From Chelativorans multitrophicus (GTDB lineage: Bacteria; Pseudomonadota; Alphaproteobacteria; Rhizobiales; Rhizobiaceae), in contig NZ_JAAAPL010000002.1 in assembly GCF_011317445.1 (NCBI RefSeq), positions 186,001 through 250,000 of the forward strand: a DNA stretch of 64,000 bases, read 5' to 3'. Made by a program: the position numbers and the translations under genes. The notes beneath the pieces are model-generated. The model saw only the letters and a list, made by a program, of their open reading frames with translations, was not told where the DNA came from and made no database searches. Shown one piece after another: positions 2,448 through 39,751 of this stretch. Within the stretch, counting starts at the first letter, position 1, and each line of letters starts with the position of its first letter.

Positions 2448-2640
2448 CCCCTCTCTTGCGACAAGAAATCGCTATCTCCCCCGCGCGAGGGAGATATCGC
2501 CGGCATTGCCTCACCGCTGCTCTTCGACGTTGGCGATTGGCAGCGGCGTTTGTGCAGGGGCTTATCTCCCCCCTTGTGGGGGAGAAAGCAAATTCTTGGG
2601 TTTGGCGAAGCCAAGCCCTTAGAATTTGCAAGAGAGGGGG
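2448..2640. repeat. Mosaic palindromic repeat, copy 1 (complete)
   Basis: The element is bounded by CCCTCTCTTG on the left and CAAGAGAGGGG on the right, which are inverted copies of each other. Inside lie two CTCCCCC/GGGGGAGA hairpins, a core of about 80 bases, and at 2588-2629 a 42-base hairpin with 9-bp outer arms (GCAAATTCT/AGAATTTGC) plus inner GGG/CCC and TTGGC/GCCAA pairs. It fills the gap between the cupin gene and the DUF559 gene. The same boundaries recur three more times downstream. Confidence 0.85.
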
Positions 2641-2643
2641 ATT

Positions 2644-3000
2644 CTAAACGATCCTCCCCTTCGCCTCATGTAGGATGGTGAGGCAGATGCCGCCGAGGTT
2701 CTTTTCCACCTCGTCGTTCCAGAAGCGCAGTGTCTTGAAGCCCCGGGCTTCAAAATGCCTGTCGCGCACGGCGTCTCGTATCGCGCCCGAATGCTGCCCG
2801 CCATCGACCTCCAGGATCAGCCGCGCCTCGAAGCAGACGAAGTCGAGGATGTAGCCGTCGAGCGGCACTTGCCGCCTGAATTTTAAGCCTTCGAGTTTCT
2901 TGTTGCGCAGCGCTTGCCACAAAAGGTTTTCGGCCTTCGTCGCGTCGGCCCGCATGGTGCGGGCATATGTGCGGTGCGGCGGCGGAACAGCTTGGCGCAT
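2644..3000 (-). CDS. DUF559 (Vsr-like) endonuclease-domain protein
   Basis: With the ATG at 3000 the product is 118 residues; a longer frame would run into the adjoining repeat. It shows the DUF559 pattern: TKAENLLWQALRNKKLEGLKF (about 20-40), then RRQVPLDGYILDFVCFEARLILEVDGGQH (about 41-69), where the Asp and Glu of DFVC and LEVDGGQH match the PD-(D/E)xK catalytic core, and a C-terminal GFKTLRFWNDEV. The family is related to very-short-patch repair nucleases and restriction-like enzymes; its biological role is poorly known. It lies between repeat copies 1 and 2. The catalytic residues appear intact. Confidence 0.88.
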   Translation of the reverse strand: MRQAVPPPHRTYARTMRADATKAENLLWQALRNKKLEGLKFRRQVPLDGYILDFVCFEARLILEVDGGQHSGAIRDAVRDRHFEARGFKTLRFWNDEVEKNLGGICLTILHEAKGRIV

Positions 3001-3004
3001 GATA

Positions 3005-3131
3005 TTTCTCCCCCTGTGGGAGAGAACAGCGCCGGCGCCCATATCTCTTCCCCTTGCGGGAGAGAAAGCGATTTCAACGTCTTAGGCAAGCCGCAGGCGA
3101 GGCTCTAGCGTTAGAAATCGCAAGAGAGGGG
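3005..3131. repeat. Mosaic palindromic repeat, copy 2 (right half)
   Basis: Two CTCCCC/GGGAGA hairpins are followed by a large hairpin at 3068-3121 with arms GCGATTTC/GAAATCGC and inner AACG/CGTT pairs, and then the right boundary CAAGAGAGGGG. The left boundary is missing. It starts 5 bases upstream of the DUF559 start codon, so that gene's leader is repeat sequence. The hairpin arms differ in sequence from those of copy 1 but are just as complementary. Confidence 0.8.
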
Positions 3132-3156
3132 ATCTTGGCGGTACGCTGAGAGGCAC

Positions 3157-3390
3157 CCCCTCTCTTGTCTTTTCCAAGCACTTGCTCGGGGACAAGCCCG
3201 CTCGCAAGTGCAGGAAAAGACTTTCTCCCCCGCCAAGGGGGAGATAGCGCCGGCATCAGCCTTGCTGCCAATCTCAGACGTCTGTGATTTGCGGAAGCGA
3301 TGGCGCACGCGCCAATCTCTCCCCTTGTGGGAGAGAAAGCAAATTCTTGGGTTTGGCGGAGCCAAGCCCTTAGAATTTGCAAGAGAGGGG
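3157..3390. repeat. Mosaic palindromic repeat, copy 3 (complete)
   Basis: The left boundary CCCCTCTCTTG is followed by a hairpin at 3167-3221 (arms GTCTTTTCC/GGAAAAGAC, then GCACTTGC/GCAAGTGC), a CTCCCCC/GGGGGAGA hairpin, a core of about 70 bases, a second CTCCCC hairpin, and a hairpin at 3339-3380 nearly identical to the 42-base one of copy 1. It ends with CAAGAGAGGGG. The left hairpin has arms unlike any other copy. Confidence 0.85.
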
Positions 3391-3411
3391 ATATTCTGCA
3401 TCGCCGTGGCC

Positions 3412-3556
3412 CCCCTCTCTTGCGATTTCTAACACTTAGCCTCCGCTTCGCTCCAGCTAAGATGTTGAAATCGCTTTCTTCCCCACCAAGGGGGAGATAT
3501 CGCTGGCATTACCTCGGCGCCAATCGCGGACGTTGGTGATTTGCGGAAGCGTGAGC
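3412..3556. repeat. Mosaic palindromic repeat, copy 4 (left half)
   Basis: The left boundary CCCTCTCTTG is followed by a hairpin at 3422-3474 (arms GCGATTTC/GAAATCGC, AACA/TGTT, CTTAGC/GCTAAG), a CTCCCC-type hairpin and part of the core shared with copy 3 (GTGATTTGCGGAAGCG). The right-hand hairpin and boundary are absent. The remaining bases to 3660 hold no gene or repeat that I can recognise. Confidence 0.8.
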
Positions 3557-5091: not shown

Positions 5092-8580
<3,489 letters not shown>

Positions 8581-39284: not shown

Positions 39285-39455
39285 ATCCGGACGGTGACGA
39301 CCCAAGGCAGGTTTCCTGGCTTGCGCTTCGACGGCGTCCTCGCCTTCCCAGGCCGAAAGGGCCCAGTGGCATGTTGAGGAAGCCTCAGCGCTGACAGTTG
39401 CGGGAGCAGCTATGGCTCGGGCGGAAAATGCCCTTCCATATTCCCTTTTAACCCC
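39285..39455 (-). promoter_or_regulatory. Cobalamin (AdoCbl) riboswitch upstream of btuB
   Basis: On the minus strand the leader contains the conserved B12 box at 39306-39324 (GCAAGCCAGGAAACCTGCC), preceded by GCCACTGGGCCC with the family's CCACTG element at about 39362-39375, a GGGAA motif near 39440 and hairpin-forming arms (GGCGAGGACGCC, CCTGGGAAGG). These features occur in the order known for cobalamin riboswitches. High cobalamin would be expected to turn off the btu operon. The exact limits are approximate. Confidence 0.9.
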
Positions 39456-39751
39456 GTTTGCGGACGGGGCACCTCAGGCACGGCCGAGACTTATCAATGC
39501 GCCATGACCCCGTCAATCGGGATACCATCGTGCCGCGCAATGTATAGGCAAGAGGTTCGCAGTATCGGCCTAGAATGCGGGCAATTAGTCCCATGTTTTC
39601 GGCAGTGAAGATCCTCTCCGTGTCTTTGGTCGAGGCAAGTGACAGGGCGCTGTCAGGAGAATAGCGCTTTGACAATGCGGGCAGGGTAGCGGAATGTTAA
39701 GGCGTCACCGCGGTCGAGATGGCAGCGATATTCGTATCAAGGGGAGTGCCT

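Follow-up and report, generated by a model that had tools for sequence, protein, structure and literature searches.

Short C-rich palindromic repeats of the intrastrand triplex type (PIT or TMECO motifs) have been described in over 260 bacterial genomes, the motif rule being three tracts joined by loops of 1–6 nt (PMC4666352). E. coli MG1655 is described as carrying 23 such motifs, and all five of its inverted pairs combine a type A with a type B motif (Holder et al. 2015, PMC4666352); the passages of that report drawn on here describe no link to transposons, phages or plasmids and name no enzyme. In the REP/REPIN-RAYT systems, dispersed short palindromes stand in inverted pairs, and a low-copy gene flanked by its own repeat type encodes the enzyme, the HUH Y1 tyrosine transposase RAYT (TnpA-REP). 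CGTC-tagged REPs are mostly alphaproteobacterial and, in the portions of the source used here, are said to lack a dedicated transposase (PMC3733652). RIME and the A-B-C mosaic elements (Osteras et al. 1995) are described, in excerpts of two later papers, as intergenic repeats of Rhizobium with unknown function (PMC2573895, PMC2873474).

The window analyzed here, which is the whole stretch of 64,000 nt from Chelativorans multitrophicus, contains a repeat family at 2448–3556 that has in common with the triplex motifs a C-rich tag, a linker, and a C-rich hairpin. Like the E. coli motifs, which join A and B, its inverted pairs join two end types. Unlike in the triplex motifs, the second loop is replaced in the window by a hairpin of about 40–50 nt, which falls outside the 1–6 nt loops of the rule. 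With REP/REPINs the family shares the dispersed short palindromes in inverted pairs (22 pairs), and with REP-RAYT an enzyme gene of low copy number that has repeats of its own type on its flanks, here a DUF559 gene; unlike RAYT, this enzyme belongs to the PD-(D/E)XK family. The Y1 transposase (PF01797) is absent from the genome of the window and is represented by one fragment in the 16 genomes of the genus sample, such that RAYT is disfavored as the agent in the genus. Because it is nearly absent, the window family is not counted as a member of REP-RAYT, even though the latter is the closest analogue. The tags of the window (CCCTCTCTTG) and its CTCCCCC stems differ from the CGTC-like tag and the stem starting with A-T by which CGTC REPs are defined in the passages of the source consulted. 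RIME and the ABC elements, compared by description only, resemble the family in being rhizobial intergenic repeats.

The function of the Pfam family DUF559 is unknown. Hairpins of the PIT/TMECO kind stand beside DUF559 genes in many genomes, and the association between the gene and the repeats is solid. The present results suggest that such hairpin repeats are spread or maintained across bacteria by DUF559, which would be their missing agent. Linking the C-rich triplex-type repeats, which have no known agent, to this family gives each of them a testable role; the link names ycjD in E. coli K-12 and would explain why the letters of the hairpins differ while the pairing stays. If mobilization by DUF559 is true, it would constitute a route of transposition that involves no known transposase fold. 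Among the open-access literature matches listed, with subscription papers outside the scope of the search, there was no paper tying DUF559 to such repeats.

Repeat units and paired arms in the window

The tag is present six times in the window, in the forward direction at 2448–2458, 3157–3167, and 3412–3422, and in reverse at 2629–2639, 3121–3131, and 3380–3390. Together, CCCTCTCTTG and its reverse mark off four units, two of which are truncated and none of which is assigned a strand. Unit U1 (2448–2640) extends from the forward tag at 2448–2458 to the reverse tag at 2629–2639, through a shortened B-type linker hairpin, a C-rich hairpin at about 2473–2496, a spacer, a second C-rich hairpin at about 2564–2586, and an A-type linker hairpin at 2588–2629. 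In U2 (3004–3131), one end is missing, and two C-rich hairpins (3004–3026 and 3044–3066) are followed by a B-type linker hairpin (3068–3121) and the reverse tag at 3121–3131. U3 (3157–3390) starts with the forward tag at 3157–3167 and an GTCTTTTCC-type linker hairpin (3167–3221), continues with a C-rich hairpin (about 3221–3246), a spacer, and another C-rich hairpin (3315–3337), and closes with an A-type linker hairpin (3339–3380) and the reverse tag at 3380–3390. The truncated U4 (3412–3556) consists of the forward tag at 3412–3422, a B-type linker hairpin (3422–3474), a C-rich hairpin, and half a spacer.

In the linker hairpins, the arm GCAAATTCT (2588–2596) faces AGAATTTGC (2621–2629), with a second copy of the two inside 3339–3380, while GCGATTTC (3068–3075) faces GAAATCGC (3114–3121), with a second copy inside 3422–3474. 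The arms GTCTTTTCC (3167–3175) and GGAAAAGAC (3213–3221) enclose a further pair, GCACTTGC (3178–3185) and GCAAGTGC (3204–3211). The original prediction had named these arms together with the boundaries and positions of the copies, and all of them were found in place. The 1.2 kb repeat stretch, located on contig 8 of a 4.82 Mb genome, has 30 matches on several contigs of that genome, a count that includes the stretch itself and places internal to it, and it is matched in 14 of the 16 genus genomes sampled, its own included. This recurrence is not due to chance. The neighboring carB protein shows 89% identity over about 300 aa to proteins of Chelativorans alearense and Aliihoeflea sp., the closest named among the 80 matches listed. 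Elsewhere in the window there is a cobalamin riboswitch (39289–39492, minus strand, 112.8 bits).

For the analysis of covariation, 42 units composed of a tag, a linker hairpin, and a C-rich hairpin were taken from the genus loci, and 41 of them were put in register, the one dropped being U4 of the window. The registered units contain 13 distinct arm pairs. Standard pairs occupy 88.0% of the cells of the 9-bp stem, compared to a mean of 75.3% and a maximum of 84.6% when columns are shuffled (none of 2000 shuffles as high), and 16 stem cells are changed on both sides (shuffle mean 5.8, maximum 12). On a third measure, which counts the pairs showing any double change, the value of 5 is not beyond the shuffles, being reached by 147 of 2000. 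Swapping of whole arms gives the same picture (mean pairing of 75.2%, maximum of 84.6%). It should be noted that these shuffles overstate independence because the copies are related, and that one row is still misaligned by a single base, an error that counts against the finding. The arms prove to be homologous and covary, representing in register one arm with changes on both sides, and the earlier claim that the sequence changes while the pairing is preserved is thereby borne out.

The tag-plus-arm pattern was located at 89 places in 11 of the 16 genus genomes, the A and B arm types being equally common (43 each). All 22 pairs of inverted forward and reverse neighbors lying 120–320 bp apart join different arm types (20 A+B and 2 B+D), with tag-to-tag lengths of 211–243 bp; this count left out end types outside the pattern, such as GTCTTTTCC. 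One A-A pair of about 60 bp, which lies outside the distance range, is a lone hairpin. Since every one of the 22 pairs joins two end types, the repeat is an element with two ends, and the arm difference is therefore in large part that between a left and a right end. The notion of different arms in the original prediction accordingly stands as far as the letters are concerned, but the arms are not unrelated, being homologous in register and to a large part the two ends of one element.

An alternative is that the hairpins act as folded RNA, either as terminators or as regulators, which would agree with the covariation of the paired arms and with the intergenic location of the hairpins. The folded-RNA reading as it was first worded does not hold, however, as all Rfam families score below their gathering thresholds in 2448–3556. 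In addition, an earlier study, as cited by Holder et al. (PMC4666352), is said to have found a related E. coli motif to be without promoter or terminator activity. The presence of the same architecture on both sides of DUF559 genes in many bacteria points instead to folded DNA that is met by a nuclease, and we consider a role as RNA very improbable. The other reading offered at that time, an active mechanism that duplicates hairpins, comes close to the one preferred here, in which the genomic pattern makes DUF559 the candidate agent.

The DUF559 gene and its flanking hairpins

The gene encoding a DUF559 protein of the PD-(D/E)XK nuclease family (2644–3000, minus strand) lies between U1 and U2, with its stop codon 3–4 bp off U1 and its start 3–4 bp off U2. 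The original prediction had made no mention of this gene. With the start assumed at 3000, in an ORF of 2644–3042 whose frame is open to 3042, the product has 118 aa and matches PF04480 with 128.3 bits (E 1.4e-37), compared to a curated cut-off of 20.6. A close sequence relative is PDB 3hrl_A, "Endonuclease-Like Protein" (E 2.8e-21), to which the DUF559 profile matches at 9.8e-38; its second match, at 3.7e-4, is 3r3p, "Mobile intron protein", which we take to be I-Bth0305I. The residues E15, D44, E55, D57, G58, and H61 are kept in 97–99% of 97 DUF559 rows and R83 in all of them, these counts including two loci (L320 and L324) that were read in the wrong frame. The matching residues are invariant in 27 aligned proteins, among them two from Deinococcus, one from a cyanobacterium, and YcjD. 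The structure predicted from the single sequence has a mean pLDDT of 46.0.

Earlier work, in the passages used here, assigned YcjD to the PD-(D/E)XK superfamily and detected Vsr with the YcjD profile (PMC1189080). The window DUF559 protein has its family in common with Vsr and the I-Bth0305I-like nucleases, but unlike these it is encoded by a free-standing ORF flanked by repeats. In a casual reading of 1–5.2 kb around DUF559 genes, a neighboring cytosine methylase or intron was not noticed. A search of viral contigs, restricted to close relatives, returned no DUF559 protein, and a phage origin was rejected on these grounds.

The genus sample contains 22 DUF559 matches in 12 of 16 genomes, with 0–4 per genome, and C-rich hairpins are found near 20 of the 22 in a list read by eye, all except L152 and the partial L158. 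A class sample of 240 alphaproteobacterial genomes, 77 of them with a DUF559 match, provided 40 regions, one per genome and none longer than 20 kb; these were mostly high-scoring matches with usable contigs and were chosen before the hairpins were inspected. Perfect-stem hairpins (at least 8 bp) number 38 in the 250 bp upstream and 37 in the 250 bp downstream of the 40 domains, with one on each side in the next 250 bp. The corresponding densities are 3.8 and 3.7 per kb, compared to 0.5 per kb at a distance of 2.5–10 kb.

One might argue that this is a coincidence, in that hairpin terminators simply lie near small intergenic genes. Control ORFs from the same regions (simple longest-ORF caller, at least 100 aa, more than 1.5 kb from DUF559) do have a hairpin of some kind on one or both sides, at 250 bp or less, in 138 of 396 cases, compared to 35 of 40 for DUF559. 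However, hairpins on both sides within that distance are found for 18 of 40 DUF559 genes and only 14 of 396 controls, the 5′ arm is a pyrimidine arm in 66 of 75 near hairpins versus 23 of 294 farther than 1.5 kb, and inverted repeats bracket 33 of 60 DUF559 genes versus 4 of 440 shifted windows. Coincidence is thus already disfavored by the controls, and we find it hardly credible.

A pyrimidine-arm (C-rich) hairpin lies within 250 bp of 33 of the 40 alphaproteobacterial DUF559 genes and of 21 of the 396 control ORFs, this criterion having been chosen after the density result on the class set. Outside the class, it gives 18 of 20 versus 10 of 195, where 15 of the 20 regions had been picked after hairpins were already seen beside them; of the five unseen regions, three are positive. 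Seven of the 40 class genes and two of the 20 others are without such a hairpin. All 28 loci newly fetched in a phylum search (16 non-alphaproteobacterial) have a pyrimidine-arm hairpin within 350 bp as read by eye, including L241 (gene start at 980 of the locus), where the gene ends 20 bp before the first hairpin. Inverted repeats also bracket four of four named DUF559 genes, all seen beforehand. In a plasmid collection, 44 records have a DUF559 match, and 12 of them were examined. The DUF559 gene of Sinorhizobium meliloti pSymB has a 114-nt inverted repeat (96%), and the stretch around the gene in the pSymB record CP090106.1 matches at least 39 places in the same record, which may in part be IS copies. 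At two cyanobacterial DUF559 genes the motifs are weaker or different. The cyanobacterial plasmid genes (L321 and L322) have a different neighborhood, in which DUF1156 genes are near and VapC or PIN-domain genes also lie close.

Around 97 DUF559 genes, 212 pyrimidine hairpins were collected in 89 loci, with a C-rich tag within 6 nt in 111 cases, farther away in 72, and none in 29. Of 94 readings of long linkers, 36 form a stem of 4 bp or more, compared to 8.2 expected, the tag detection being crude and some of the counted linkers being other hairpins. Linkers in the form of hairpins that differ in their letters are seen, for example, at L215, L218, L230, and L236. The large hairpins of the window are therefore read as linkers, in which the pairing rather than the sequence matters.

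A proposed role for DUF559 and the distribution of the repeats

We propose that the repeat is a short two-ended element on which DUF559 plays a RAYT-like role with an unrelated nuclease. Each end would consist of a C-rich tag that a linker joins to a C-rich hairpin; the linker would be either a few nucleotides or a hairpin of free sequence, and folding would put the tag beside the C-rich stem. The DUF559 protein, encoded between the repeats, would recognize the end once folded, in DNA that is single-stranded or extruded, on whichever strand folds, and would nick it. Repair or replication could then copy the element, or the element together with the gene, to another place. The arms of the linker would drift because only their pairing matters. 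On the basis of the genomic pattern, we assign this reading a probability of roughly 60%.

The pattern CCCTCTCCC-N2-10-GGGAGAGGG hairpin was counted in the 240 class genomes, with the 58 genomes having a match of at least 60 bits taken as DUF559-positive and 19 with weaker matches set as negative. In these counts, which are uncorrected for GC content, 795 of the 871 CCCTCTCCC hairpins fall in DUF559-positive genomes, and at least 5 copies are present in 34 of 58 positive versus 4 of 182 negative genomes (odds 63, p 2e-21). Among class genomes of at least 3.5 Mb, the same threshold is reached by 22 of 34 versus 1 of 47. Within the 22 families that contain both kinds, the DUF559 carriers have more copies in 16, fewer in 2, and equal numbers in 4 (p 0.0013). 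Outside the class, 31 DUF559-positive genomes of 213 hold 1779 of the 2152 hairpins, and at least 5 copies occur in 17 of 31 versus 9 of 182, likewise uncorrected for GC content. A second REP class, tagged with CGTC (ATTCCCGC), is weakly linked to DUF559 (at least 5 copies in 9 of 58 versus 6 of 182, odds 5.4; 94 of 193 copies in positive genomes), and this comparison serves as a control of specificity and not as a null, since the weak link remains.

The high shares of copies in DUF559-positive genomes bear on the possibility that another agent spreads the repeats, with DUF559 being a selfish homing-type nuclease gene that cuts and inserts there. The position of the window gene between repeats and the "Mobile intron protein" as the second PDB match of the profile would fit such a homing gene, but repeats should then be common without DUF559, which is opposite to what the counts show inside and outside the class. 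A number of genomes do go against the association. Seven class genomes without a strong DUF559 match hold 3–18 copies and nine non-alphaproteobacterial ones 5–107, while 18 of the 58 positive class genomes have none of the searched CCCTCTCCC pattern. In the genus, the window repeats are matched 61 times in G011, which has no DUF559 match; matches are also found without a window-type DUF559 in G003 (1), G007 (15), G013 (3), and G015 (41), and G014 has a window-type DUF559 gene without the tag-arm pattern. G380 (107) and G300 (57 CCCTCTCCC hairpins) are repeat-rich and have no strong DUF559 match. In G011, G300, and G380, the gene may have been lost or missed, or another agent may be at work.

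Repeat types in the genus were labeled by eye from the hairpin arms before the tree was built. On a tree of 21 genus DUF559 domains, the six repeat types need 5 changes, which is the least possible number, and the genome of origin needs 16 (least possible 10). When all seven labels are considered, 6 changes are needed, compared to a shuffled mean of 11.3 (none of 200 as low). The tree, inferred quickly from 104 columns, has four starred branches and two long branches that meet, and the K type is split on it by the one DUF559 gene without a typed repeat. Seven genomes hold at least two DUF559 genes with different repeat types. Within the genus, the repeat type follows the nuclease subfamily.

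Such tracking argues against DUF559 being a host nuclease that processes structures as a repair enzyme and moves nothing, its flanking repeats regulating or protecting the gene. A host function would be in line with the low copy number in the genus genomes and with the kept acidic and histidine residues. It would also agree with the link of VsrA, a DUF559 protein of Caulobacter, to DNA damage, which its authors, in the passages drawn on, read as a mismatch-repair enzyme (PMC12907096).

E. coli ycjD and variable sites

The triplex motif TMECO 9 is placed at 1351204–1351239 of MG1655 (PMC4666352), and in the part of the genome annotation used here ycjD, annotated as a DUF559 protein, is located at 1351407–1351760, 168 bp from the motif. 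E. coli K-12 thus fits the partnership between DUF559 and the repeats. E. coli was not reported by the control panel of the DUF559 search, despite ycjD. A fabI-ycjD-sapF query is covered to at least 80% in 3333 of 5426 E. coli genomes, which speaks for a host nuclease. E. coli was also considered as a clean empty site and rejected: in three spot checks of fabI-only matches (strains A13, 1162C, and WP3-W18-CRE-03; L331, L332, and L333), fabI is followed not by ycjD but by a TetR regulator and RND efflux genes, and the arrangement therefore does not resemble a clean excision.

In a wider form of the proposal, DUF559 proteins would be the mobilizing enzymes of a major repeat class, acting as Vsr-like PD-(D/E)XK nickases on folded hairpin, perhaps triplex, ends in Pseudomonadota and Deinococcus. 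YcjD would serve the triplex motifs of K-12, and the linker hairpins would be read by their shape and not by their letters. We hold this extension tentatively, the odds being slightly against it.

Whether copies occupy variable sites, a point raised with the original prediction, can be answered positively from one unit, to which the occupancy comparison of the genus repeats was confined. The element at 713971–714193 of contig 1 of the own genome is also present in G011, and nine other genomes in which both flanks align are without it, the gap being 50–220 bases compared to about 285–306. In G003 the flanks at this site are more diverged, and the gap is shorter too. The ends of the element could not be placed to the base because the intergenic sequence is too diverged. 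At a second site, Deinococcus psychrotolerans carries a DUF559 gene with 56-nt inverted repeats (98%) between paaD and paaZ, while in Deinococcus sp. QL22 the paaD-paaZ gap is 83 bp and contains neither a DUF559 gene nor a repeat of that kind. At neither of these two sites could the element ends be mapped to the base or a target duplication be established.

The presence or absence of units at matching sites is reminiscent of a mobile element and, taken together with the matching of repeat types, makes a pure host nuclease quite improbable. For the homing gene the situation is mixed. The carB-permease interval of C. alearense has window-type repeats at 7513–7829, and the DUF559 gene has no blastn match there, as homing would allow, but Deinococcus sp. 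QL22 lacks the gene together with its inverted repeats at the matching site, and we regard homing as unlikely. The two-ended element nicked by DUF559 remains our preferred reading. Additional tandem units are present in G008, and at 8400–8550 of the C. alearense locus L067 there is an inverted pair of another repeat type, with CCTCCCCC hairpins and an GGGGTAAGGGATGGGGG-like tag, and with no gene space between its members.
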